Positions 1,882 through 27,880 of a stretch of DNA of 30,270 bases are shown here, piece by piece. Within the stretch, counting starts at the first letter, position 1; the number at the start of each line of letters is the position of its first letter. The stretch is from a virus. Made by a program: the position numbers and the translations under genes. The DNA lies in IMG/VR virus record IMGVR_UViG_3300048444_000224, positions 1-30,270 of that record; one strand, given 5' to 3'. The notes under the pieces are model-generated. The model was not told the DNA's origin. It searched no databases and saw nothing but the letters and a program-made list of their open reading frames with translations.

Positions 1882-3594
1882 TTAATCTTCATCATCTCTT
1901 TCACCAATAACATCAATAGTCATTGATGGTGCTCTTAAACTTGTTTGCCCGGCGATTGGTGCTGTTATACCTAATAATGACGGCTCATTTATTATTTCTT
2001 CAATAGGCAACAAACTTTGAATATTTTTAGCAAACTGTTGTTCAGCAAGTCTATTTTTAAGTGCGTTGGCTAATAACCCACCAGATAATAAAGTTACGGC
2101 TGTTGTGCCTCCCTCTTGGAATGTTTCTGGTGCGGTTAAAAGAGTCCCTGTTGCGGCTAATCCTCTTCCTGACATTCTTCGAGGGTCAAGCCTACCAACA
2201 AGACCTAACAGCTTTTGTAATGCGCCATCTTTAGAGTCTATAATATTATCAATAATTTGCTCTTGTTCATTTGTTAAAAATCGTCTTCGTTTTTTTATTG
2301 CAGAAGTATCTCTTTTTCCTGTTCCGCCAAAAAATTTTAACAATTCATCTTTTAATAATTCATTAACGTTTTTATTAGAATTTTCAGACCTTTTTATTGC
2401 TATTTCAAGCGTGTCTTTAATATCATTATAAAAATTTTCTTCTTGATATGCTTTTTTAGCTGTTTGATGCGTAACAATATAATCTTCAGGAATTAAAGAA
2501 TCGTCTAACATAAGTTGTTTTATGTCATCTACTACATCGCCGACGTCTTTAGTGTAAGTTCCTTTTCTTGCCGCCTCACTTACCTCGTCTTGCAAAGTTC
2601 TATTTAATGCTTTCAATTCCCTATAATTTAAATTACCTTTTTTATCTAATGCTTTAATATAATTATCAATTATATTAGACATGCGTGAATTAATTTTTTC
2701 TACTGTTTCTTCAGTTGTGCCGGCAATAAGTTTATTTTTCTGAGCAACAAGTCTATCCCTTATTTTACTTGCTGGTATTTCAATTTTAACAATATCTTTA
2801 TCTAACTTATTAAAATTCTGTCTACTTGCATCACGTGCATCTTGCATTTGAGTTGTTACATCATCAAGACCACCTTTTATAGTAGGCGGCGGAGTAACAC
2901 TTGGATAATCAAGCCCTGTACTTCTTAGTCCTCGTTTTGTTAAAGCACCTAAAGTTAGACCTAAACCCGTTCCAAAAATACCTTTATCTAAATCGTCTCC
3001 ACCAACCGCTGTTACAACATCTTGAGCCGCTGGTATTGTGCCGGCAACAACACTTGAGGGTATTACATCTTCAGTGAAAGTTTTTTTAAGGGCTTTTCCT
3101 GTTTGCGTTGTTGGCTTTATTAACTTTAAACCAAGTGAGCTACCTAATCCAATGCCGGGCAAAACAACACCTGACGCACCTCGTATAAATTTATCTGCGG
3201 TAGAATCACCACCACGACCTATTTTTTCACCTAAATCAGACAATGTAACCGGGTCATATTCTGTTCCTGTTATCTTACTAATCCCTCTACCGATTGACTC
3301 AATAAAAGGGTCAAGAAACATTCCACCGGTTTCTAACACACCTTGACCAAGAGAACGAGTGCCGCCGATAATATCATCAATAATACTACTTTGTTTTCTT
3401 GTTACAGGGCTATCATCAGAAACAGCTTGAGGCGCATATTTTCTGTTGTATATTTCTTTTATTTCCTCACGAGAGGCACCAGCCCTAACAGGAAACCTAA
3501 CTGATTTACCATCTTTAGTTATAAAATTAACAAATTGTGAATCTTCTTCAATTATTGTGTTTTCGGTTATACCATCTATATTTTGTTGTGCCAT
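1882..3594 (-). CDS. Large internal virion / DNA-ejection protein
   Basis: This 570-residue protein has an N-terminal segment (FITKDGKSVRFPVRAGASREEIKEIYNRKY) like those starting internal virion proteins of podoviruses. Glycine-rich hydrophobic stretches follow near residues 140-160 and 205-220, which could insert into membranes. The middle is a long charged helical region, and another hydrophobic stretch lies near residue 500. It is the last of four consecutive proteins between the tail hub and the fibres, the place where P22-like phages encode their ejection proteins (gp7, gp20, gp16). The ejection role is inferred from position and composition. Confidence 0.65.
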   Translation of the reverse strand: MAQQNIDGITENTIIEEDSQFVNFITKDGKSVRFPVRAGASREEIKEIYNRKYAPQAVSDDSPVTRKQSSIIDDIIGGTRSLGQGVLETGGMFLDPFIESIGRGISKITGTEYDPVTLSDLGEKIGRGGDSTADKFIRGASGVVLPGIGLGSSLGLKLIKPTTQTGKALKKTFTEDVIPSSVVAGTIPAAQDVVTAVGGDDLDKGIFGTGLGLTLGALTKRGLRSTGLDYPSVTPPPTIKGGLDDVTTQMQDARDASRQNFNKLDKDIVKIEIPASKIRDRLVAQKNKLIAGTTEETVEKINSRMSNIIDNYIKALDKKGNLNYRELKALNRTLQDEVSEAARKGTYTKDVGDVVDDIKQLMLDDSLIPEDYIVTHQTAKKAYQEENFYNDIKDTLEIAIKRSENSNKNVNELLKDELLKFFGGTGKRDTSAIKKRRRFLTNEQEQIIDNIIDSKDGALQKLLGLVGRLDPRRMSGRGLAATGTLLTAPETFQEGGTTAVTLLSGGLLANALKNRLAEQQFAKNIQSLLPIEEIINEPSLLGITAPIAGQTSLRAPSMTIDVIGERDDED

Positions 3595-3604
3595 AATATT
3601 TTAC

Positions 3605-17224: not shown

Positions 17225-18424
17225 TTAATCAAGAAGTTTTGCTGTTTTACCTGTGTAATTTTCCCACCTTTTAATAATAACATCACAATATTTTGGGTCT
17301 AATTCCATTATCCTAGCATCTCTGTGGTTTTTTTCACAGGCAATTAATGTTGAGCCCGAACCACCAAATAAATCTAAAACAATATCATTTACACCAGAAC
17401 TGTTGTTTACTGCTCTACTTATTAGTTCAATAGGCTTTGTTGTTGGATGCATTTCACTTCTTTTAGGTCTTTTTATATCCCATACATCAGATTGTTTTCT
17501 GTCTTTTAATACTTTTAATCTTGATTCACCTTTTAACCAACCGTACCAAATAGGCTCATATTTTGTGTGATAATCTTTTCTTGAAATAACAAGTGTGTCT
17601 TTGTTCCATATAATTGTGCTTGACCAATGAAAATCATTCAAAGCTAATGTTAACATTGCATTTCCCCACTCTTGCGCTGACATAACAACGTAAGTCATAC
17701 AACCGGGCTCACAAACATTTTTCATCTGTAAAAACACTTTTGACATAAAATCTTTAAAGTCATCTGTTGACATAGCATCATTTAAGATTTTTCTGTTTTT
17801 ATATTTACCATTTGCAAGATTGGAACCGTAGTCAACATTCCAAGGTGGGTCAGTAAAAACCATTTGCGCTTTATCTTCACCCATTAGTCTCTCAACATCA
17901 TCTTTAACAGTTGAATCGCCACACATTAACCTATGATTTCCTAGCTGAAATAATTGACCTAATTTTGTGTTTGGTTCATCAGGAACCGGAGGTAACTCAT
18001 CTTCGTCAGTTAATCCATCAACATCATCAGGTTTTAACAACTCTGTCAATTCTTTTTGGTCAAATCCTAAATTAGATAAATCTATTTTGTCATCTAATTC
18101 TTTAAGCTCTGATGATAATAAACTTATATCCCACTCACTGTTTAAGGCTATTTGATTGTCAGCAATTATATATGCTTTTTTTTGTTCTTCGGTGAGATGT
18201 TCTATTTTGATAGTTGGAATTGTTTTGAGGTTTATTCTTCTTGCCGCCTCAACTCGACCATGCCCTGATATTATTGTGTTGTCTTTATCTATTAATACAG
18301 GAACATTAAATCCAAACTCCTTAATTGAGTTTGCTATTTGTTTTATTTGCTCCGGGCTATGTACTCTTGCGTTGTTTTTATACGGAGTTAGAGTTTCAAT
18401 AGCGAGTTGCTCTATTTGTTCCAT
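17225..18424 (-). CDS. ParB-like / DNA methyltransferase fusion protein
   Basis: This 399-residue protein joins two domains. Residues 1-110 are a ParB/Srx-like domain (IETLTPYKNNARVHSPEQI, then the SGHGRVEAARR nucleotide-binding box at 53-63). Residues 155-395 are an adenine-N6 or cytosine-N4 methyltransferase with DPPW (192-195), HPTTKP (326-331) and the AdoMet loop FGGSGSTL (353-360), giving the beta-class order. All key residues are intact. Such fusions are common in phages and may protect DNA from restriction or mark it. It has its own promoter immediately upstream and no ribosome binding site, suggesting a leaderless message. Confidence 0.9.
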   Translation of the reverse strand: MEQIEQLAIETLTPYKNNARVHSPEQIKQIANSIKEFGFNVPVLIDKDNTIISGHGRVEAARRINLKTIPTIKIEHLTEEQKKAYIIADNQIALNSEWDISLLSSELKELDDKIDLSNLGFDQKELTELLKPDDVDGLTDEDELPPVPDEPNTKLGQLFQLGNHRLMCGDSTVKDDVERLMGEDKAQMVFTDPPWNVDYGSNLANGKYKNRKILNDAMSTDDFKDFMSKVFLQMKNVCEPGCMTYVVMSAQEWGNAMLTLALNDFHWSSTIIWNKDTLVISRKDYHTKYEPIWYGWLKGESRLKVLKDRKQSDVWDIKRPKRSEMHPTTKPIELISRAVNNSSGVNDIVLDLFGGSGSTLIACEKNHRDARIMELDPKYCDVIIKRWENYTGKTAKLLD

Positions 18425-19102: not shown

Positions 19103-19224
19103 TTTACTTTTCCTTTGCTAAATTTTTTTGCTACTTTTAATGGAACTTTTAATTTTTTTCTCAATTTGTTGTTTTTTACCAACATTCCCATAAATTTTTT
19201 TTGTTTTTTAGTTTTTGCTGGCAT
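19099..19224 (-). CDS. 41-residue basic protein, DUF3008-like start
   Basis: The gene begins at ATG 19224 inside the TAATG junction with its upstream neighbour and ends in an ATGA overlap with the next. The product begins MPAKTKKQKKFMGMLVKNNK, matching the opening MPAKSKxQxxFMGMV of DUF3008 small proteins, and finishes with lysine-rich sequence (KVAKKFSKGKVK). DUF3008 members are usually longer. Nucleic-acid or head-interior binding is plausible for such a charge. The start overlap on both sides supports reality. Confidence 0.62.
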   Translation of the reverse strand: MPAKTKKQKKFMGMLVKNNKLRKKLKVPLKVAKKFSKGKVK

Positions 19225-19406
19225 TATGCTTTCATTTTTGCTTTAATTTTCTTTTGCATTGTCTTAGGCAATTCATTTAAATGATACAACCTTTGACTGC
19301 TTACTGTATGAGTTTTGCCGCTATGTAGTTGACCATTTGGCATTTTATGCATTTTACCTTTATGTAATCTACCGCTTTTAAAATAATGTGGTACACCTTT
19401 TGCCAT
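19224..19406 (-). CDS. 60-residue His/Lys-rich protein
   Basis: The product (MAKGVPHYFKSGRLHKGKMH KMPNG...) repeats short Gly-Lys-His units: RLHKGKMHKMPNG and LHSGKTHTVSS. It then ends RLYHLNELPK and a basic tail. I recognise similar KGVxHYFKDGxLHKGxxHKMPDGxLHSG proteins from marine phages, always among small basic genes. The His/Cys-free repeat may bind phosphate backbones. It shares one-base overlaps with both neighbours. Function is unknown. Confidence 0.65.
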   Translation of the reverse strand: MAKGVPHYFKSGRLHKGKMHKMPNGQLHSGKTHTVSSQRLYHLNELPKTMQKKIKAKMKA

Positions 19407-19868: not shown

Positions 19869-19970
19869 TTACTTTTTACCGTATTTTTTTGTTTTTTTTC
19901 CTTTTTTCTTTTTGCTTTTCTCCATGTATTTCTTCATCATATCAGTAGCATATTTGTCAGTCATAGCCAT
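19869..19970 (-). CDS. 33-residue lysine-rich leader-proximal protein
   Basis: The first gene of the late block starts at ATG 19970 behind an AAGGGAT ribosome binding site. It encodes MAMTDKYATDMMKKYMEKSK followed by an almost pure Lys/Gly tail (KKKKGKKTKKYGKK). It is only 24 bp from the -10 box of the late promoter. Charge and place suggest an abundant small basic protein. The DNA coding for the tail is a long A-rich run prone to slippage. Confidence 0.55.
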   Translation of the reverse strand: MAMTDKYATDMMKKYMEKSKKKKGKKTKKYGKK

Positions 19971-19994
19971 AATAATCCCTTTATTCTAGTGTAT

Positions 19995-20029
19995 ATTATA
20001 AGATTACTAGCATAATTAGTTGCTGTCAA
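19995..20029 (-). promoter_or_regulatory. Late promoter P2
   Basis: On the minus strand a perfect TTGACA (20029-20024) is followed by 17 bp and TAATCT (20006-20001), and then by a perfect TATAAT (20000-19995) at 23 bp. It lies directly after the U-tract of terminator T2 and drives the small basic genes and the rest of the late block. A 5-bp inverted repeat (CTAGT at 19986-19990, ACTAG at 20006-20010) brackets the -10 region and could bind a regulator. Confidence 0.7.
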
Positions 20030-20057
20030 TAAAAAAGCCCGGCTTTTATACCGGGCT
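20030..20057 (-). terminator. Intrinsic terminator T2
   Basis: The minus strand reads AGCCCGG, an 8-nt loop (TATAAAAG), CCGGGCT and then TTTTTATT: a 7-bp G+C-rich stem with a U-tract. It ends RNA-B and separates the early/late junction from the late promoter. Confidence 0.9.
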
Positions 20058-20097
20058 AAAAAAGTGAGATAAAATTGTTTCCGGAGGGAAAAACAAT
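20030..20097 (-). ncRNA. Candidate phage small RNA B (about 68 nt)
   Basis: A promoter at 20131-20104 predicts +1 at 20097, exactly the first base of a hairpin: ATTGTTT (20097-20091), a 10-nt loop with a CCCTCC core (20090-20081), and AAACAAT (20080-20074). An unpaired linker of 16 nt (20073-20058) follows, then terminator T2. The linker plus two bases is complementary to the ribosome binding site upstream of ATG 26857, with 17 of 18 positions paired and one bulged base. The same site starts 27267 and 26047 with fewer pairs at the far end. The loop is complementary to a Shine-Dalgarno core. No ORF is present. Alternative reading: a short attenuated leader of the late block, comparable to lambda 6S RNA before tR'. 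Confidence 0.55.
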
Positions 20098-20103
20098 AAC
20101 TAA

Positions 20104-20131
20104 ATCCTAACAAATTTAAATATTATGTCAA
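20104..20131 (-). promoter_or_regulatory. Promoter P1 for small RNA B
   Basis: The minus strand has a perfect TTGACA (20131-20126), a 16-bp spacer and TAGGAT (20109-20104), with TGT before the -10 as an extended element. It sits between terminators T1 and T2, so its product would be a short RNA unless T2 is read through. Confidence 0.65.
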
Positions 20132-20137
20132 TGCTTT

Positions 20138-20169
20138 AATAAAAAAAGGCAACCGTGATGATTGCCTTT
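20138..20169 (-). terminator. Intrinsic terminator T1 at the end of the early block
   Basis: The minus strand reads AAAGGCAA, a 9-nt loop, TTGCCTTT and then further T residues: an 8-bp stem with a clear U-tract. It ends the early transcripts and candidate RNA-A. Confidence 0.9.
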
Positions 20170-20236
20170 GGGTTCTCATATTTGCATTGTGGGATAAGTT
20201 ATTATTTAGAAAGGATATAACTAACGCAAAATAGAT
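20138..20236 (-). ncRNA. Candidate phage small RNA A (about 99 nt)
   Basis: An extended -10 promoter at 20250-20242 and terminator T1 define a transcript without an ORF. It contains a hairpin with a 6-bp stem (AGTTAT at 20222-20217, ATAACT at 20202-20197) and a 14-nt loop. The loop and adjoining stem bases include a 15-nt stretch (plus 20205-20219) perfectly complementary to the ribosome binding site region of the replication initiator gene (23869-23883). It could be a trans-acting antisense RNA. It might instead be the processed 3' end of the early mRNA, since early transcription also reaches T1. Confidence 0.5.
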
Positions 20237-20241
20237 TATTA

Positions 20242-20250
20242 ATTATAACA
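20242..20250 (-). promoter_or_regulatory. Extended -10 promoter P3 for small RNA A
   Basis: The minus strand carries TGTTATAAT, a perfect extended -10 with a perfect -10 hexamer. No good -35 is seen 17 bp upstream (AGCTAT). The overlapping AATATGTTATAA is a 12-nt match to one half of the early operators, so the same repressor might act here. Confidence 0.5.
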
Positions 20251-20252
20251 TA

Positions 20253-20462
20253 TTATTTGTTAAAATAGCTATGCAATTTTATCATTTCATTTCTTAAATA
20301 ATTATAACCGTATGCTCCTCGTTTTTCTTTAATTCTTGCCAAATGCGTTCTTTTCTCCTCATTTGACTTAAACCTTTTAAAAACATCTTTTACCTCACAA
20401 TATAAACGGTATTCTTCAGACCAAGAGTCAATTTCTCTACCATCAATTGTTTTTATTAACAT
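20253..20462 (-). CDS. Small DUF7696-like phage protein
   Basis: The chosen start is ATG 20462, overlapping the upstream gene by 20 nt; GTG and TTG lie just before it. The 69-residue product (MLIKTIDGREIDSWSEEYRL YCEVK...) contains a TIDGREIDSxSEEYRxxCEV opening and the RTHLARIKEKRGAYGYNYLR stretch. This resembles a small phage family that I associate with DUF7696, with low certainty on the number. It is helical and charged, and the last early gene before T1. No biochemical role is known to me. Confidence 0.68.
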   Translation of the reverse strand: MLIKTIDGREIDSWSEEYRLYCEVKDVFKRFKSNEEKRTHLARIKEKRGAYGYNYLRNEMIKLHSYFNK

Positions 20463-21453
20463 CACCAAAAAATTGACTTTTTATGTAATCCACACCCTTT
20501 TGAAACGCATCAATTTTAATTTTATCAATTTCTTTATCAGAGTAATAATTTTTTTGATTATTGCTTGTGATTAACTCACTTGGGACATCAGGCTCTTTTA
20601 TTGGTTTTATTTGATTTTTTGGGTCGTTTGTATAAGCATCAATTTTTGCCATCAAATGACTCATATCGCTACTATGTTTAAAATCAATAATATTATCTTT
20701 AACCTTTGTTTCTTTTAAATTAAACTTTTCTTCAATCTCATGGTAAAAAGAATATAAATTTTTTATTAAATAACATCTTTTTTGGTCTTGCTGTCCATTT
20801 TTATTATTAAAATACACATAATCTTTTCTTGATTTTGATACAGAATTAAAATTATGAAAAAACTTCGATAAAGAACGTGGTGTCGCTTTTTCATACCTTG
20901 GATTATGTTCTTCCAATAATTGCGTCATTTCCAATAATTCTAAACTTGCCAATTTACCAATGTTTTGCTCAAAATTACTTTTATGACCGCTAATCCCACA
21001 ATAATTCTTTTTTTGATAATAATAAAATAACAAATCATACAAAGCCTTATTTTGTTTTTTTGATGTTTTTTTAAAAACATTTTTGTTATCTTTTGCTGTT
21101 TTATATATATCTTCACACAATTTACTTTGATGATAAATGGTAAAAAAAGCTCGTATATCCAATTTATTAACATCTCTGCACCAAATGTTATTAAAATTTG
21201 TTGAATTTTTTTTATCCCATTTGTATTTTTGTGAGGTTTTAGACCAATCAATTAACATTTTTAGGACAACCTCTTCTTTCCAGTTTAAATGTGTATATAA
21301 ATATTTGACAGACCAAATAACTTTAAGCCATTTTTTATAACCTATATCTGGGCTTATTTTATTTAACATAGCAGAAAACTTACTATATTGTGTTGCTGAA
21401 CCATCATACAAAAAGTCACTGCCTATTAACTTGTTTTTTTCACTTACTTGCAT
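20443..21453 (-). CDS. PriCT_2-like replication protein, without visible primase or helicase domain
   Basis: The 336-residue product has, at about residues 26-95, a stretch resembling PriCT_2, a helical domain usually placed after the AEP primase core. Its SPDIGYKKWLKVIWSVKYLY matches the family pattern IDPDxxYxxWxxVGxAL, and LIDWSKTSQKYK then FNNIW matches the WDxWSxxSxKYxxxxxxxxW end. The remaining 240 residues are Asn/Lys-rich and helical. I see no DxD primase motif or Walker A helicase motif, so it may load or recruit host enzymes. The call rests on this one domain. Confidence 0.5.
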   Translation of the reverse strand: MQVSEKNKLIGSDFLYDGSATQYSKFSAMLNKISPDIGYKKWLKVIWSVKYLYTHLNWKEEVVLKMLIDWSKTSQKYKWDKKNSTNFNNIWCRDVNKLDIRAFFTIYHQSKLCEDIYKTAKDNKNVFKKTSKKQNKALYDLLFYYYQKKNYCGISGHKSNFEQNIGKLASLELLEMTQLLEEHNPRYEKATPRSLSKFFHNFNSVSKSRKDYVYFNNKNGQQDQKRCYLIKNLYSFYHEIEEKFNLKETKVKDNIIDFKHSSDMSHLMAKIDAYTNDPKNQIKPIKEPDVPSELITSNNQKNYYSDKEIDKIKIDAFQKGVDYIKSQFFGDVNKNN

Positions 21454-21472: not shown

Positions 21473-21664
21473 TTAATCCCTTCCGTAACAAATCGACCAA
21501 CACTTTCTACAATAACCTTTATCTCTCATCCCGGCATATTTAACTGTACCGTGGTCAATTTTACCTCTACACCTTCTACAATATTTTTTTCCTAATGCAC
21601 TATCTAATATTTTGCTTATTTCTTCATTACTGCATTGATACAATATTGGATAGTCTTTCTTCAT
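21473..21664 (-). CDS. Zinc-ribbon protein, paralogue of 21977-22162
   Basis: This 63-residue protein carries two CxxC pairs: YCRRC at about residues 28-32 and YCRKC at about 51-55. Together they would bind one zinc ion. The N-terminus (MKKDYPILYQCSNEEISKIL) aligns with that of the gene at 21977-22162 (KKTSLLYVPSSEEINSFVD), making the two paralogues on either side of the PDDEXK gene. It overlaps the nuclease gene by 4 nt. Possible roles are DNA binding or a nuclease partner; nothing more can be read. Confidence 0.7.
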   Translation of the reverse strand: MKKDYPILYQCSNEEISKILDSALGKKYCRRCRGKIDHGTVKYAGMRDKGYCRKCWSICYGRD

Positions 21665-21984
21665 AATTCACCCATTTCATCTTTGTAATGTTTTAATAAT
21701 TCAAAAAATACATTTTCTGATACCGTAAAAGTAAATTCTGTTGAATTTTGTTTTTTTATTGCCAAAATCCAATTATCGCCATCAGAGTTATCAGTTACCT
21801 GTTTAATCCATTTATTAAATTGAATTGTTTTACAATTTTTTACCTCACATGAATATTTACCTAACTTTCCATCATCGCCAGCACTTCCAACTGCCGGTGG
21901 TCGCATTTTATAACCTAAATGATATAAAACCTTATCTCTGAAAAGTTTTTCACCTCTATAACCTTTATTTTTTGAATTAACCAT
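21661..21984 (-). CDS. PDDEXK-family nuclease, Holliday-junction-resolvase-like
   Basis: I place the start at ATG 21984 (MVNSKNKGYRGEKLFRDKVL), overlapping the upstream stop by 8 nt; 21 more codons are open upstream but seem unused. The 107-residue product has the order of a compact PDDEXK enzyme: Glu in GYRGEKLF, then GSAGDDGKLGKYSCEVKNCK with the paired Asp residues and the ExK motif (EVK), then a helix with KWIKQVTD. Archaeal-type Hjc resolvases and phage resolvase-like enzymes share this pattern. A role in resolving recombination or packaging junctions is inferred. Confidence 0.7.
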   Translation of the reverse strand: MVNSKNKGYRGEKLFRDKVLYHLGYKMRPPAVGSAGDDGKLGKYSCEVKNCKTIQFNKWIKQVTDNSDGDNWILAIKKQNSTEFTFTVSENVFFELLKHYKDEMGEL

Positions 21985-22162
21985 ATTTTTTGTTCCAACA
22001 ATATCTACATAGTTTTTTGTCTGAGTTAGTAGCAATACTTTTTGCACTTGTCCAACTTAACTTTTTTTTACAAAAATGACAAAATTGTTCACCAAAGGTT
22101 TTATCAACAAAAGAATTAATTTCCTCACTACTTGGAACGTAAAGTAATGAGGTTTTCTTCAA
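21977..22162 (-). CDS. Zinc-ribbon protein, paralogue of 21473-21664
   Basis: The preferred start is a TTG at 22162; a TTG at 22216 would add 18 residues but overlaps the YbcO-like gene much more. From 22162 the 61-residue product opens (M)KKTSLLYVPSSEEINSFVD, matching its paralogue over the first 30 residues. It has FCHFC and LCRYC as two zinc-binding pairs. Start choice rests on this alignment. A DNA-binding or nuclease-assisting role is possible. Confidence 0.6.
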   Translation of the reverse strand: MKKTSLLYVPSSEEINSFVDKTFGEQFCHFCKKKLSWTSAKSIATNSDKKLCRYCWNKKYG

Positions 22163-22433
22163 TAAGCCATCTAATTGATTTTTGCCATGCTTGAAAATGT
22201 TTTTGTCTTTTTTCAAATTTATCTAATTTTCCAATTTGCCCATCAACTTTCATGTGACAGTCATGACACAAAAAAGCACCAAACAAATCATTACTTTTAT
22301 ATCCATATCCTCTCCCATCTTCTAGTCTATTACTATGAGCCAAACATAACAAGTCACCGTTAGGGTTTTCCAACCCACAAGACATACATTCCGGGCATTG
22401 TTTTGCCAACTCCCTAAACCTTTTACTGTGCAT
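22128..22433 (-). CDS. YbcO/DUF1364-like putative nuclease
   Basis: This 101-residue protein resembles the YbcO/DUF1364 family of small prophage nucleases in recombination regions. It has paired cysteines (CPECMSCG, residues 13-20), LLCLAHSNRLEDGRGYGYKS with the characteristic His, and FLCHDCHMKVDGQ with a CHxCH metal site. The fold is HNH-like with metal ligands intact. It overlaps the upstream gene by 11 nt and lies between replication and resolvase genes, fitting a branched-DNA processing job. Family assignment is by motif memory. Confidence 0.75.
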   Translation of the reverse strand: MHSKRFRELAKQCPECMSCGLENPNGDLLCLAHSNRLEDGRGYGYKSNDLFGAFLCHDCHMKVDGQIGKLDKFEKRQKHFQAWQKSIRWLIEENLITLRSK

Positions 22434-22761: not shown

Positions 22762-23078
22762 TTTACTCTCCTCGTTGCTGTTCTTAAAATCTCAACAATT
22801 TTTTTCATATGATGGGAATTATCTTTTACTCCAAAAGATGTACCTAACTCACCATCGATGTGTTCGGTACAATAATATGCGCCGCCGCCAAGTTTAATTG
22901 TGCCATGCTTATCACATCTTTTACCTTCGATAACTCTAGCACACTGTAAATCATACCAAATACCATCAATCTGTGTACCATATTTAAAAGGATTGCCGGT
23001 AACATGGCTTTTGTTTTTTGTCCAACCACATGAACACGAATCACCATATAGCTGTCTGTCACAATCAGGACAATTCAT
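22758..23078 (-). CDS. Zinc-finger protein next to the replication initiator
   Basis: This 106-residue protein begins MNCPDCDRQLYGDSCSCGW with two cysteine pairs, a common opening of small zinc proteins following the initiator gene in phages. A second zinc-like region has CARVIEGKRCDKHG and YYCTEH. The rest is charged and helical. It overlaps the initiator stop by 4 nt (ATGA), implying coupled synthesis. It may assist helicase loading or origin melting; that is inference. Confidence 0.68.
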   Translation of the reverse strand: MNCPDCDRQLYGDSCSCGWTKNKSHVTGNPFKYGTQIDGIWYDLQCARVIEGKRCDKHGTIKLGGGAYYCTEHIDGELGTSFGVKDNSHHMKKIVEILRTATRRVK

Positions 23079-23866
23079 TTGCTCACCTCCTTTAACTCAC
23101 CAAGATATTGTTCAAAGTTCTTTTTGCCAAATAAAGTAGCTGGTCTTATATAAACACTCATTTTTTCATTACTTGACCACTCCCTGTTCTTTTTAGCAAT
23201 AACTGATTTAATATCTGCTTTATCATAACCTTGCTTTAATAATCCTTTAACTAAATCAAAATTTTTTGTTGGTTTTCCGTTAGGGGTAAATATTGGAAAA
23301 TGTCTGTTTGCTTTCTCATTCAAGAAAATTAAAATCTCTTTAACATCTTCACTTTTAATAATAGGTTTTGCTTTAGCTAAACTATAGTTTTTCTTATTAT
23401 CTATATCTATATCAGTATCTATATCTATACGGTTCAAGCCTGTCTCAAGAGTGTCTTGAGTATGGCTTAAGCCCGTCTTCTTTTCTTTTAAGTTATTGAT
23501 TTTATTAAGTTCATCATCTAACTGAAAAGGGCTAACAGGATAAAGTCTTTTGAAAAACCTAACCCTTTGACGATGGTTTGGTATATGAAGATAATCTTTT
23601 TCTTCACTTGAATTGTCAGTTGCTTTATACATCCTAATTAATTGTTTCTCAACTAATTGCTCTAATATTGATGTTGCTTTTTCAATTGAAGTGACGCCAT
23701 CAAAATCTCGCCATAATCTAAATAATTTAAAAATATTACCTTCTAAATTACCTAAATCATCTTGCTCACTAATTAATCTAATAAAACAAAGCCTAACAGT
23801 GTCAGAACCCAAACTGTTAAATTTTTCGCTGTCCCAAATCCCTGGTCGTAACATTCTTGTTGCCAT
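23075..23866 (-). CDS. Replication initiator, lambda-O-like organisation
   Basis: The 263-residue protein has an N-terminal winged-helix-like part (residues 5-100: RPGIWDSEKFNSLGSDTVRL, LEGNIFKLFRLWRDFDG), a low-complexity linker near 145-155 with repeated Asp-Ile (RIDIDTDIDIDN), and a C-terminal domain with ILIFLNEKANRHF, NFDLVKGLLKQGYDKADIKSVIAKK, EWSSNEKMSVYIRPATLFGK and FEQYL. This is the Phg_2220_C pattern of phage replisome organisers. The repeat DNA inside the linker resembles an internal origin. An AGAAAGGATATATTATG ribosome binding site precedes it and is complementary to candidate RNA-A. Confidence 0.8.
   Translation of the reverse strand: MATRMLRPGIWDSEKFNSLGSDTVRLCFIRLISEQDDLGNLEGNIFKLFRLWRDFDGVTSIEKATSILEQLVEKQLIRMYKATDNSSEEKDYLHIPNHRQRVRFFKRLYPVSPFQLDDELNKINNLKEKKTGLSHTQDTLETGLNRIDIDTDIDIDNKKNYSLAKAKPIIKSEDVKEILIFLNEKANRHFPIFTPNGKPTKNFDLVKGLLKQGYDKADIKSVIAKKNREWSSNEKMSVYIRPATLFGKKNFEQYLGELKEVSK
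23399..23473 (-). other. Candidate replication origin inside the initiator gene
   Basis: Two copies of ATCTATATCTATA (23399-23411 and 23417-23429) form A+T-rich direct repeats. They are followed by a perfect inverted repeat CTCAAGA-GTG-TCTTGAG (23444-23460) flanked by AAGCC and GGCTT that extend the stem, and by the perfect palindrome GGCTTAAGCC (23464-23473). Lambda and relatives place ori in the linker of gene O in just this way. The DNA encodes the disordered Asp/Ile linker, so sequence freedom is expected. Inferred, not proven. Confidence 0.5.
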
Positions 23867-23868
23867 AA

Positions 23869-23883
23869 TATATCCTTTCTAAA
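23869..23883 (-). promoter_or_regulatory. Initiator ribosome binding site complementary to RNA-A
   Basis: The minus strand bases 23883-23869 read TTTAGAAAGGATATA and cover positions -17 to -3 before ATG 23866. The same 15 nt occur on the plus strand at 20205-20219, so the predicted minus-strand RNA-A is their exact complement and would occlude the ribosome binding site. The upstream A+T tract also offers a weak TATAAT. Confidence 0.6.
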
Positions 23884-24151: not shown

Positions 24152-24699
24152 TTTTTTCTCCTATATGGTGGTTTAGTATTTGTTTTGACGTATTGCCAAA
24201 ACTCTTCTAATAATGGAAACATATTGTTCCAATAATCTTTATCTCTGTTAATTAAAATTATATTATGACCATCTTCATTTATGCTCACAAAATAACATTT
24301 ATCAACATTACAAATTTCCATCTGACCCTGTATTTGCGGCACATAATAATCAGGAACGGTTTGATGGATTACTCTTGGTGATTTTATTTCAATCACATAC
24401 TCATCACCAATAATTCCATCAGGACTTGCGCCTAACCAATCATAATCATCATGTATTTTAAAGCCAATTTGTTCTGCAATTAAACCTGTTTCAACCTCTA
24501 AAGCATCAATACCTGATTGTTCAAGGTCAATGCCACGTTGCATATCTTGATTAATTGGTTCATCTTCAGCTTTGCCGGTTTTTTGTTCCCATAATTTTTG
24601 CCGGGATTTAAATTTATTCCAACCACAAGCCGCCGCAAAATCAGATGCGGTTAGTCGATTCTTACGAATCTCAAACCATTCCTCACTTCTTTGTTGCAT
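24148..24699 (-). CDS. YqaJ-family exonuclease (lambda Exo-like)
   Basis: This 183-residue nuclease degrades one strand of DNA ends to give the recombinase its single-stranded substrate. Motifs: QRSEEWFEIRKNRLTASDF at the start, RGIDLE (Glu60), SPDGI (Asp94), EIK (Glu104-Lys106) and QIQGQM (Gln122, Gln126), all intact for a PDDEXK enzyme of the YqaJ/RecB-like group. I start at ATG 24699, which has GAGG six bases upstream and gives the natural family N-terminus; GTG 24711 is open too. It overlaps the recombinase gene. Confidence 0.88.
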   Translation of the reverse strand: MQQRSEEWFEIRKNRLTASDFAAACGWNKFKSRQKLWEQKTGKAEDEPINQDMQRGIDLEQSGIDALEVETGLIAEQIGFKIHDDYDWLGASPDGIIGDEYVIEIKSPRVIHQTVPDYYVPQIQGQMEICNVDKCYFVSINEDGHNIILINRDKDYWNNMFPLLEEFWQYVKTNTKPPYRRKK

Positions 24700-25324
24700 C
24701 AGTATCCTCACTTTGATTTAATTGCTGTTTTTTATTATTTTTAAATGTTATGGCAATGTTTCTCTCTTCAACCGATAAACTTTCCCATACAGATTTTAAT
24801 TCCTCAAGCGATTTACATTTATTGATTTTGCGCTCAATTTCAGGATTAGGCGGCAAGTCTTCGCCAGTATAAATATACAAACCTATCCCATGTAAACTAA
24901 TTGCTTTTGCTTTACACCTTTGCAGTGCTGTATTGAGTTGAAAAGAGTCAAAATCTGCTATAGGTTTATTTTTGTAGTCCATAACAGGTAGGTGTGCTGT
25001 TTTAGTCTTACCAAAGGCGGTTACACTTACATAGACCAACGCAGTGCCATTATCTAATTTTTTAAAAGGCAATGTTTCAGTTATCAAATAAGAGTTGCTC
25101 TTGCCCTCTAAAATGCGTTTATTTTCAAACTCGTGATGTTGGTATGTTGCATTTGGGTCTAACTGTAGTAAGATGTCATAAGCATTAGCCCAAGACAAAT
25201 AACTTAAGTTGCCCTTTTTTTCAACCGCATGGTTAACATTAATAGTGCGTAAATAACTAAATTCACCTGAATCAGCTTTTACCTCGTTTTGAACCTCTAA
25301 TGATTTTTCTTTCATTTTTCCCAT
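24683..25324 (-). CDS. Single-strand annealing recombinase, Sak/DUF1071-like
   Basis: The 213-residue product has the DUF1071 pattern: GNLSYLSWANAYDILLQLDP near residues 38-57, VYVSVTAFGKTKTAHLPVMDYKNKPI in the middle, and FQLNTALQRCKAKAISLHGIGLYIYTGEDL near 127-156. These mark the Rad52-like/ERF-like annealing proteins of phages. Paired with YqaJ it forms a two-component recombination system. The remaining 55 residues are charged and helical. The start at 25324 follows a GGAG ribosome binding site. Confidence 0.82.
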   Translation of the reverse strand: MGKMKEKSLEVQNEVKADSGEFSYLRTINVNHAVEKKGNLSYLSWANAYDILLQLDPNATYQHHEFENKRILEGKSNSYLITETLPFKKLDNGTALVYVSVTAFGKTKTAHLPVMDYKNKPIADFDSFQLNTALQRCKAKAISLHGIGLYIYTGEDLPPNPEIERKINKCKSLEELKSVWESLSVEERNIAITFKNNKKQQLNQSEDTDATKK

Positions 25325-25804: not shown

Positions 25805-26047
25805 TTACTTTTCTTTTCTAGCTTTTGACAACACATAATCATCAATTTCTTTCTTATCCCAAACAGTAACTCCTGCTGATAATTGAATTGGTTTAGGAAA
25901 GCTTTCTTCATTAGTACGCAGCCACCAGATTGTACTAGTGCCGCAACTCAAATATTTTGCTAGTTCTTTTGCTCTTAAGAAACGACCAAACCCATTACCA
26001 ATTTCCAACTCTCTTGATTCTTTATAGTTTAATGTTTCATCTATCAT
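25805..26047 (-). CDS. AlpA-like winged-helix regulator
   Basis: The 80-residue product carries the AlpA pattern: RFLRAKELAKYLSCGTSTIW (recognition helix), then SFPKPIQLSAGVTVWDKKEI and DDYVLSKARKEK. Members are excisionases or transcription regulators; with no integrase in the genome a transcription role is more likely. An AAAGGAGATAAAATG start region precedes it, one of three early ribosome binding sites complementary to candidate RNA-B. The neighbouring RHH gene is a second regulator. Confidence 0.8.
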   Translation of the reverse strand: MIDETLNYKESRELEIGNGFGRFLRAKELAKYLSCGTSTIWWLRTNEESFPKPIQLSAGVTVWDKKEIDDYVLSKARKEK

Positions 26048-26057
26048 TTTATCTCCT

Positions 26058-26360
26058 TTACTCGTTGTTAAATTTAAATGAGGAATAAATCTTTTTTAAC
26101 AATTCAATAATTAAAAATTTATCCGCCCATGTTCTTTTTTTGTGTTTATCCCAATTATCAAGTAACTGCCAATCAAATAAATGCGACCTGTCATTCCACC
26201 AATCATGCCCTAAAATATAAGTCTCATCATTATCAACACCGCAAACAGCGGCACTTAAATCAACAAAATAAATATTATTATTAATAACTTTATAAGCACA
26301 ATTTGTATCAGGATAAATTATATCTTTTTTATAAAATAATACATTCGTGGGGAACTTCAT
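26058..26360 (-). CDS. Hypothetical early protein
   Basis: The start is ATG 26360, with GGAG seven bases upstream; a TTG four codons earlier is less likely. The 100-residue product (MKFPTNVLFYKKDIIYPDTN ... ILGHDWWNDRSHLFDWQLLD) is Trp- and Asp-rich and mixed alpha/beta, with a WADKFLIIELLKKIY helix at the end. I recognise no family. It lies just after a small membrane protein gene within the early block. Confidence 0.62.
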   Translation of the reverse strand: MKFPTNVLFYKKDIIYPDTNCAYKVINNNIYFVDLSAAVCGVDNDETYILGHDWWNDRSHLFDWQLLDNWDKHKKRTWADKFLIIELLKKIYSSFKFNNE

Positions 26361-26361
26361 G

Positions 26362-26526
26362 TTATACTCCAAAACTTAAAATTACAGCAATAATAAACCA
26401 AAATGAAATAAGAAAACCTACAACACAAAGACCTCTTGAAACATAAAACAAAAAATTATTAATTATCTTTCTTCGTGAAGTAGGTTTATTTAATACTAAA
26501 TCTTTATAATCGTATTCGTATTTCAT
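26362..26526 (-). CDS. Small early membrane protein
   Basis: Starting at ATG 26526 behind GAGGAA, the gene encodes 54 residues: a charged N-terminus (MKYEYDYKDLVLNKPTSRRK) and one long hydrophobic segment (about residues 27-52, ending VILSFGV). This is the layout of a single-span inner-membrane protein with cytoplasmic head. Phage early membrane proteins often block superinfection or alter host physiology, but no motif shows which. Confidence 0.6.
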   Translation of the reverse strand: MKYEYDYKDLVLNKPTSRRKIINNFLFYVSRGLCVVGFLISFWFIIAVILSFGV

Positions 26527-26527
26527 A

Positions 26528-26857
26528 TTATTCCTCGTTAACAGCAATAACAATATCTTGCAATATTTCATCGCCAACATCATTATCTGAAACAACCAAA
26601 TAAATGTCGTCTTTTAATTTAGTAATATGAACATAAGATTCGTAAACACCATATTTAATATGCCATAAACCAAAGCCATCAATATCATTGTAACAATTAC
26701 CAAAAACATTAATTAACTGTTGATGTGATAATTTGATTTCTGCGCAATTTAAATCAGCAGTATCAGAAAAAATTATATTTTCGTCCTCATCATCAACAAA
26801 TTGTACAGAAAAATTAGAGCCTATTAATTGGTGTCTAAACTGTGTTTCTTGTAACAT
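26528..26857 (-). CDS. Hypothetical early protein
   Basis: The 109-residue acidic product (MLQETQFRHQLIGSNFSVQF ... YESYVHITKLKDDIYLVVSDND) is mostly strand with a DVGDEILQDIVIAVNEE end. No family is evident. It is the first gene after the second early promoter, with a leader A-run, then AAGGAGATAAAATG, making it the best match to the linker of candidate RNA-B. A host-takeover role is possible but unsupported. Confidence 0.62.
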   Translation of the reverse strand: MLQETQFRHQLIGSNFSVQFVDDEDENIIFSDTADLNCAEIKLSHQQLINVFGNCYNDIDGFGLWHIKYGVYESYVHITKLKDDIYLVVSDNDVGDEILQDIVIAVNEE

Positions 26858-26888
26858 TTTATCTCCTTTTTTTTTAAATTATATAAAT

Positions 26889-26923
26889 ATTATATATTAA
26901 TATGTTATAAATGTAAACATATT
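26889..26923 (-). promoter_or_regulatory. Early promoter PE2 with palindromic operator
   Basis: Minus strand: TTTACA (26917-26912), 17 bp, TATAAT (26894-26889). The plus-strand AATATGTT (26899-26906) and AACATATT (26916-26923) arms form an 8-bp inverted repeat with 9-bp spacer that covers the -35 and spacer. The 27 bases 26899-26925 are identical to those at 27891-27917 in promoter PE1. Confidence 0.82.
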
Positions 26924-26925
26924 TA

Positions 26926-27267
26926 TCAAAGCATTTCATATTTAAGTGCGTAACAATCTTTAAAAATTTTAAAACTTACATCAGAGATAACTTTGAACCC
27001 CATATCCATGCCGCAACCTTCGATATATAACCCTCTAGGCGGCTCAGTTTCGTTAATATTAACCCGTTCCTGTAATAACTGAGCAAATTGATAAGTCAAA
27101 TAATACTTAATTGTGTGGTGATGTGGGTCAGGCTCAAACTTATAAAAATCGATATACCGGGCTGTTCCATCTTCTAACACATAATTAACATGATAATAAA
27201 TTCTGTCACCTTTGTTTAAAATTTCAGTTAATTCTTTTTTTGCTTTAAGTTTAAAGTTTTCATTCAT
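26926..27267 (-). CDS. Hypothetical protein with CGMDMGF motif
   Basis: The 113-residue product has a charged N-terminus, a KFEPDPHHHTIKYYLTYQFA segment, and GLYIEGCGMDMGFKVISDVS. The GxGMDMGF signature recurs in small proteins of marine phages and I know of no assigned function. Its start has AAAAAGGAGATAAAATG, one of the sites complementary to candidate RNA-B. It is the last gene read from PE1 before PE2 restarts transcription. Confidence 0.68.
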   Translation of the reverse strand: MNENFKLKAKKELTEILNKGDRIYYHVNYVLEDGTARYIDFYKFEPDPHHHTIKYYLTYQFAQLLQERVNINETEPPRGLYIEGCGMDMGFKVISDVSFKIFKDCYALKYEML

Positions 27268-27279
27268 TTTATCTCCTTT

Positions 27280-27563: not shown

Positions 27564-27851
27564 CTATTTGATTGAAATTTCTGTATATGATGTTTTCTTT
27601 GTAATTGAATTTAAAAACCTTACTGTGGGCTTGTATTTGGCAATTAAAGCATTTTTATCGGTAGTTTTTCTAACCTTTTCGGTTAATGTTATAACACTAC
27701 CGTCTAAGCAAGTGATTTCGTTCAGATTTTTTGTTTTGCAATAAGTTTCTAAATCAAACCTTTTCTGATTCAATTTAATTTGCAATTTAGCCATTTGCTC
27801 TTTAACTTTTTTGTAATCGTCAGCTATTTTTTGTTTTGATATTTTGTGCAT
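27564..27851 (-). CDS. First gene of the early block; coiled-coil hypothetical
   Basis: The 95-residue product is basic, with an N-terminal coiled coil (KIADDYKKVKEQMAKLQIKL), a CxLDGSVITLTEKVRKTTDK middle and a C-terminal TKKTSYTEISIK. It is transcribed from PE1 with TTTAGAAAGGGAACAAAATG before the start, so its ribosome binding site shares ten bases with the RNA-A target. Being first suggests an immediate-early gene. Nothing specific can be assigned. Confidence 0.6.
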   Translation of the reverse strand: MHKISKQKIADDYKKVKEQMAKLQIKLNQKRFDLETYCKTKNLNEITCLDGSVITLTEKVRKTTDKNALIAKYKPTVRFLNSITKKTSYTEISIK

Positions 27852-27880
27852 TTTGTTCCCTTTCTAAATAATATATATAT

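Follow-up and report, generated by a model that had tools for sequence, protein, structure and literature searches.

Two candidate small RNA genes at the early/late border of an environmental phage, one with a loop complementary to early ribosome-binding sites

Background

The c4 antisense RNA of phages P1 and P7 is a structured molecule whose complementary loop bases pair around the ribosome-binding site (RBS) of a phage mRNA and block its translation, as described in PMC12197685; c4 is also treated in PMC2864571. According to the former review, sar of P22 and OOP and aQ of lambda are small phage RNAs that lower the translation or stability of developmental phage mRNA, with OOP belonging to the replication/lysogeny control region, and VpdS of phage VP882 and PreS of lambda are Hfq-dependent trans-acting sRNAs in lytic growth (PMC12197685). 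The locus analysed here lies between the early and the late genes of an environmental phage, and the loop of one of its two predicted RNAs is complementary to the RBSs of the phage's own early genes.

The window, that is, the whole stretch of DNA analysed, is a viral record of 30,270 bases with 33.5% G+C and without a terminal repeat. Judged by its portal and terminase, it lies close to Methylophilales phage Venkman, Manatee Spring podovirus-like genomes and the Pelagibacter phages HTVC010P/HTVC106P. A search of genome contigs with the rep protein, made for the host, found no relative, and a DNA search of the annotated phage collection with the junction gave just short chance matches of 24-38 nt. 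Nearly all genes of the window are read leftward, the early ones lying between 27851 and 20253 and the late ones starting at 19970, on the other side of the junction (gene starts are those of the longest ATG ORF). Two small proteins of the early region (21473-21664 and 21977-22216, minus strand) are zinc-ribbon-like, with a CxxC...CxxC pattern, and are apparent paralogues; each retrieves the other's homologue at 34-39%, and both are strongly conserved among relatives. A family search with them gave no confident match, and they are possible regulators of late-gene transcription. A gene of the late operon at 17225-18424 (minus strand), lying upstream of that for the terminase, encodes a fusion of a ParB-like nuclease domain with a DNA methyltransferase, with relatives in many terminase-related contigs.

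Results

Promoters, RNAs and terminators of the junction

Read on the minus strand from 20251 to 19971, the junction begins with an extended -10 promoter and a 99-nt RNA1 with terminator T1 at its end, continues with a TTGACA promoter and a 68-nt RNA2 with terminator T2 at its end, and closes with the late promoter. The original prediction had taken this arrangement for two tandem small RNA genes, and all of its elements were found, each where it had been placed. With the flanking genes they are as follows.

20253-20462, minus strand: last early gene, DUF7696 family (PF24751; Pfam E 1.9e-12), directly upstream of RNA1
20242-20250, minus strand: P1, promoter of RNA1, extended -10 TGTTATAAT
20138-20236, minus strand: RNA1, about 99 nt, branched hairpin and terminator (fold z -4.1; homologues in L001/L090 and L298-L300)
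20200-20219, minus strand: anti-RBS loop of RNA1, UAUAUCCUUUCUAAAUAAUA, with 15-nt complements to two early RBSs
20145-20169, minus strand: T1 terminator stem-loop, with a U run to about 20138
20104-20131, minus strand: P2, promoter of RNA2, TTGACA-16-TAGGAT
20030-20097, minus strand: RNA2, 68 nt, 5' hairpin, single-stranded linker and terminator (fold z -4.05; relatives in L001, L095, L172 and L092-L094)
20083-20088, minus strand: loop CCCUCC of RNA2, seen in every relative found
20066-20075, minus strand: linker AUUUUAUCUC of RNA2, complement of the early RBS/start GAGATAAAAT(G), with 10-nt matches at three early starts
20036-20057, minus strand: T2 terminator stem-loop, with a U run next to it
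20001-20029, minus strand: P3, late promoter, TTGACA-17-TAATCT, conserved in L001, L095 and L172
19869-19970, minus strand: first late ORF, a lysine-rich protein of 33 aa

The late promoter is present at its expected place, but its -10 is better read as TAATCT with a spacing of 17; TAATCT is kept in L001, L095 and L172 and the adjacent TATAAT is not. The units had been said to lack an ORF, and there is indeed no convincing one between 20253 and 19970; the sole ORF called in the junction is a 50-codon TTG ORF (19961-20113). RNA1, with its own promoter and intrinsic terminator and without an ORF, has the build of a trans-acting base-pairing small RNA.

Promoters and terminators by themselves prove nothing here, since their counts are at the level of shuffled sequence: a 4-kb region contains 18 promoter-like sites (20.3 expected) and 2 terminators (2.3 expected). 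Folding and conservation, however, do exceed chance. RNA1 folds at -20.5 kcal/mol (z -4.1), which none of 200 shuffles equalled, and RNA2 at -19.6 kcal/mol (z -4.05), equalled by one of 200. The relative IMGVR_3300030116_006523 (L001/L090) keeps the full order, with P1 as TGyTATAAT, the RNA1 hairpin, T1, TTGACA-16-TAGsAT, the RNA2 hairpin, T2 without any change, and the late promoter. Its identity to the window is 86% for RNA1, 93.5% for P2 plus RNA2 and 85% for the leader of the late promoter, against a silent-site baseline of 66% (466 fourfold-degenerate sites of the neighbouring genes). P1 reads TGCTATAAT in L001 and TGATATAAT in L173, and P2 reads TTGACA-16-TAGCAT in L001 and TTGACA-16-TACAAT in L172.

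There are also compensatory changes, read directly from the sequences, which are few; relatives were compared in hand-trimmed alignments. First, a C-G pair in the outer stem of RNA1 is U-A in the relative L001. Second, one U-A pair of the RNA2 stem is C-G in L095/L172. Third, the T2 stem GCCCGG/CCGGGC of the window is GCCCAG/CTGGGC in L095/L172. Loss of the promoters and hairpins in relatives would speak against small RNA genes, and both are kept.

Relatives with an inverted early module

The relatives L092-L095, L172 and L173 were retrieved with the small late protein at 19224-19406 and with DUF7696; L301, L302 and L303 are contigs of L094, L093 and L092, respectively. Only three independent lineages are known for RNA1 and four to five for RNA2. 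RNA1 directly follows the DUF7696 gene in the window, L001 and L173. In L095 and L172 the order is DUF7696, the RNA2 unit only (loop ACCCUCCA, linker UUUAUCUCACUUUU) and the late promoter TTGACA-17-TAATCT.

In L092-L094 the early module is inverted with respect to the window. The inversion in the contigs L301-L303 comprises the full early module, from the first early gene to RNA1 (27851-20138 in the window), relative to the late operon, and its breakpoints are outside RNA1 and RNA2. In these genomes an intact RNA1 follows DUF7696 at the distal end of the early operon: it has TGATATAAT, an outer stem formed by CTCTATTA and TAATAGAG, an inner hairpin whose loop lies around UUAUCCUUUCUAAU, and a terminator. 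It thus retains its TGnTATAAT promoter, hairpin and terminator despite its moved position relative to the late operon. At the late end, the late mRNA begins with an RNA2-like unit as its 5' leader, and a separate late promoter is lacking: the +1 of the unit lies at the same ATTG, and after it come a hairpin whose U tract is weak, a Shine-Dalgarno (SD) sequence and the ATG. In the window, L001, L095 and L172, RNA2 is instead a closed unit of promoter, hairpin and terminator, after which comes a separate late promoter. RNA1 thus goes where the early module goes, and RNA2 stays with the late operon, which makes them two separate units and not a single leader. As a small RNA gene, the first unit holds up well, being independent of the late operon with its promoter, hairpin and terminator kept; the second is less clear, given its leader position in L092-L094.

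A scan for the RNA1 promoter plus loop yielded, after filtering, L221 and L224 as true relatives among the matches listed; from the same matches L180, L182, L205 and L265 were rejected, as they were judged to be the antisense of coding RBSs. L003 matches the pattern TTTTTCCCTCCGRAAACA, but its contig is unrelated and lacks the unit. CCCTCC hairpins in L102 and L110, lying in other gene contexts, were set aside as RNA2 relatives. L092 has, upstream of its RNA2-like promoter, about 115 bp (about 3485-3600) that L094 lacks; this insert contains a hairpin GGGTTCACTAATA..TATTAATGAACCC and the string TTAGTAATATCCTAAAGG, which resembles the RNA1 loop region, and is possibly a third RNA unit.

Complementarity of RNA1 to early ribosome-binding sites

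The main point of this work, absent from the original prediction, is the complementarity to the RBSs of early genes. The sites in the window, including the candidate sites for RNA2, are given below.

23869-23883, minus strand: RNA1 target site 1, RBS TTTAGAAAGGATATA of the replication-initiation gene 23075-23866 (PHROG), 15-nt exact complement
27859-27873, minus strand: RNA1 target site 2, RBS TATTATTTAGAAAGG of the first early gene 27564-27851, 15-nt exact complement
27266-27275, minus strand: candidate RNA2 target GAGATAAAAT, start of gene 26926-27267
26856-26865, minus strand: candidate RNA2 target, start of gene 26528-26857, best-ranked in the window by cofold
26046-26055, minus strand: candidate RNA2 target, start of gene 25805-26047 (AlpA-like)

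The two 15-nt complements of RNA1 overlap within the loop UAUAUCCUUUCUAAAUAAUA, of which a 12-nt core, TATCCTTTCTAA, is identical across three lineages. Apart from RNA1's own locus, neither strand of the 30,270 bases contains a further complement of at least 13 nt. Two start regions with a complement of at least 13 nt were obtained in none of 5000 dinucleotide shuffles. When 8184 other windows of the genome were scanned for two such start matches, 4 reached this level, the positions listed being RNA1's own locus (minus strand) and 25992, 26804 and 27210 (plus strand), over the repeated early RBS. RNA1 is thus complementary, beyond chance, to start regions encoded elsewhere. With the core CCTTTCT fixed and its flanks shuffled, the second-best match was reached in none of 2000 trials for the window, none for L090 and one for L303; the result is weaker in L301 (18-56 of 2000). 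Since the flank shuffles seldom reproduce the second-best match, the pairing reaches past the generic anti-SD core.

The loop and the early RBSs co-vary among relatives. In the L092-L094 lineage the RNA1 loop is UUAUCCUUUCUAAUAA and the early RBSs are TTAGAAAGGATAA, differing to match. L302 and L303, which are close relatives and not independent, have eight RNA1 matches of 11-16 nt, each immediately 5' of an ATG, and L301 has three of 13-14 nt. At least six start regions with at least 12 nt, as in L303, were found in 2 of 5000 shuffles, and three start regions, as in L301, in 3 of 5000. All 7 AGAAAGG-type RBSs are on the early strand in L303 and in L301 (hypergeometric 0.024 and 0.013, respectively). 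The genes targeted at the start of the early module differ among lineages, and each RBS fits its own RNA1; between window gene 27564 and the L303 gene of similar length there is no detectable homology. In L090, the match at site 1 is 14 nt long; the first early gene (60% identical) has lost its RNA1 match and carries GGAGATAAAAATG, of the class that fits the RNA2 linker.

Hybridisation energy gives no support for pairing by either RNA when compared with shuffles: in net energy over the four best early targets, RNA1 is reached by 31 of 40 shuffles and RNA2 by 12 of 40, in controls that lose their own structure on shuffling.

Matches of RNA2

Over 10 nt, the RNA2 linker AUUUUAUCUC is exactly complementary to GAGATAAAAT(G), a sequence that occurs at three early starts of the window and at two of L090. 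Ten nucleotides is also the longest RNA2 match in the window, and 136 of 300 shuffles reach as much. The L095 fragment contains no anti-RBS match of RNA2. In L304 the linker has changed to AUGUUUAUCUC and fits GAGATAAACAT over 11 nt, a length reached by 6 of 300 shuffles, at the start of the gene that takes the place of window gene 20443-21453, and in L301-L303 the RNA2 loop UUUACCCUCC fits GGAGGGTAAATG over 10 nt at the start of the 20443 homologue, an early gene. The single matches are weak and the energies are not above shuffles; therefore, the possibility that RNA2 may act on early starts is only suggestive. Several early genes of the window (26046-27275 and 24683-25324, minus strand) have a near-identical start region, AAAGGAGATAAAATG, as if their RBSs had been homogenised.

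Discussion

A possible role in ending the early phase

The exposed bases of these RNAs mirror early RBSs, and the units therefore probably turn early protein synthesis off. RNA1 probably acts in trans as an anti-RBS RNA and stops early translation, and the junction, RNA2 included, is probably a phage-encoded riboregulatory module. The sequences show the elements, how well they are conserved, and a complementarity that runs past the SD core and co-varies; from these we infer transcription, repression by ribosome-binding block, its timing and any need for Hfq. Transcription of RNA1, presumably by the host RNA polymerase, would begin at its own promoter, an extended -10 of the sigma70 type that directly follows the last early gene. 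It would present an anti-RBS sequence, core UAUCCUUUCUAA, in a hairpin loop and pair over about 11-16 nt with the SD region of early mRNAs that have a AGAAAGGA-type RBS. In the window these would be the mRNAs of the replication initiator and the first early gene, on which 30S binding would be blocked. As the early region is transcribed RNA1 would accumulate, early translation would fall and the infection would enter its late phase; late genes, whose RBSs differ, would escape.

RNA2, made from P2, is probably a second RNA following the same logic, its CCCUCC loop and UUUAUCUC linker fitting GGAGATAAAATG-type early starts; in some relatives it may have become fused to the 5' leader of the late mRNA, or may always have been that leader. 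The best reading of RNA2 is as a companion sRNA or an attenuated late leader. Its U-rich linker and U tail would be compatible with Hfq binding.

In a broader and more tentative interpretation, the temporal programme would be written in an RNA code: one or two stereotyped classes of early RBS, and two small RNAs at the border with exact complements to them. RBS and loop would evolve together, and the translation of the early regulon would be switched off while late genes with other RBSs escape. Taken jointly, these propositions are slightly less likely than not.

The developmental timing of phages is usually ascribed to transcription factors, sigma factors, antiterminators or phage polymerases. 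If the proposed role of RNA1 is correct, it is small RNAs that bring the early phase of an environmental phage to its end, by reading a shared RBS class, that of the replication initiator included, and the locus is a natural example of a multi-target anti-RBS RNA. The signature, an RNA loop complementary to the phage's own early RBSs, is testable and can be searched for in other phages.

Other explanations

The original prediction had itself named an attenuated late leader, similar to lambda pR'/6S, as the main alternative. Here P2 would be the true late promoter, T2 an attenuator overridden by a phage antiterminator and RNA2 an abortive leader, with RNA1 a separate matter. The late operon of L092-L094 indeed begins with the RNA2-like unit as its 5' leader, without a second promoter, and more distant relatives encode Q-like antitermination proteins. 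Related phages encode similar 108-aa proteins in L086 (7813-8139) and L087 (12602-12928), annotated as Q-like antitermination with only weak matches to sigma-70 region 4 or antitermQ; the window has no recognised counterpart of them. However, a separate conserved late promoter lies between T2 and the late genes in the window, L001, L095 and L172, and only L092-L094 have the 6S-type arrangement without one. Moreover, the early proteins of the window scanned with Pfam/PHROGs include no match to a Q-type antiterminator, although part of the genome may be missing, or a protein that escapes recognition may fill the role. RNA1 with its anti-RBS matches is also left unexplained. The position of RNA1 behind the last early gene, even where the module is inverted and the late operon is no longer adjacent, argues against a late-leader role for the first unit. 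For the second unit the alternative still stands, since its homologue is the late operon leader in L092-L094. We regard a late leader as an unlikely account of the junction.

CCUUUCU and CCUCC are anti-SD-like sequences. RNA1 and RNA2 might therefore mainly target host mRNAs, or act as ribosome decoys or mimics of the anti-SD tail of 16S rRNA and so lower or redirect translation in general, the phage RBS matches being a by-product of the shared SD. An anti-SD loop is expected to match many SDs. However, the matches continue beyond either edge of the SD core and vary together with the phage RBSs, and the matching RBSs are confined to the early strand, which leaves this explanation improbable.

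Terminator insulation between modules is common in phages, and two strong terminators do lie exactly between the modules here. The tandem terminators and accessory promoters could thus merely part early from late transcription, the RNAs having no function in trans. Against this, the units are conserved above silent sites, RNA1 retains its structure and promoter where it is not between the early and late operons, and the RBS complementarity is far above shuffles; insulation as the sole role is therefore highly improbable.

We give next to no weight to the idea that the early module inverts by recombination at the 15-bp inverted repeat which the RNA1 loop forms with the first early gene's RBS, the repeat then not being a regulatory pairing: the repeat does flank the module that is inverted in L092-L094, but the second 15-nt match is internal (rep), L302/L303 have eight matches, and RNA1 is intact at the DUF7696 end of the inverted genomes, so the breakpoints are outside the repeat and inversion through it was rejected.

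Comparison with known systems

At the gathering score, no Rfam family matches, and c4 is absent from the sub-threshold matches. MicX and anti-hemB (RF01808 and RF02837) score 37.7 and 26.9 bits against gathering scores of 75 and 49.5, respectively; the RNA2 match to anti-hemB, lying below the gathering score, therefore does not make it a member of that family. The sub-threshold matches to MicX, SQ1002, anti-hemB and rseX reflect a resemblance in terminator and C/U loop only. The bacterial sRNAs AbcR, NfeR1 and anti-hemB likewise have a C/U-rich anti-SD loop followed by a terminator (PMC8844928, PMC10746234), but they are bacterial chromosomal RNAs, unlike RNA1 and RNA2 of the phage.

The lambda 6S/pR' leader is a short terminated transcript immediately before the late operon, and RNA2 has this position in L092-L094. 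Unlike lambda 6S, the locus has a separate late promoter after T2 in genomes built like the window; a Q-type protein was not detected, and some genomes have RNA1 without linkage to the late operon. Of the other phage RNAs, sar, aQ and OOP are antisense RNAs, the last of them to cII (PMC12197685), whereas RNA1 lies 3-8 kb from its matches and its pairing spans 11-16 nt. The partner of PreS is a host RNA (dnaN) and those of VpdS are host and phage mRNAs, and for neither does the available text report an RBS code of an early regulon (PMC12197685). The open-access literature searched holds no description of a multi-target anti-RBS RNA controlling a phage's own early genes.

The closest parallel is c4: in both RNAs, bases in a loop are complementary to the RBS of a phage gene. 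The target of c4 is the ant mRNA, in the immunity of temperate phages. RNA1 would work in the manner of c4; it differs in being encoded in trans, with a promoter and a terminator of its own, in matching several early genes, and in lying at the border between early and late genes.
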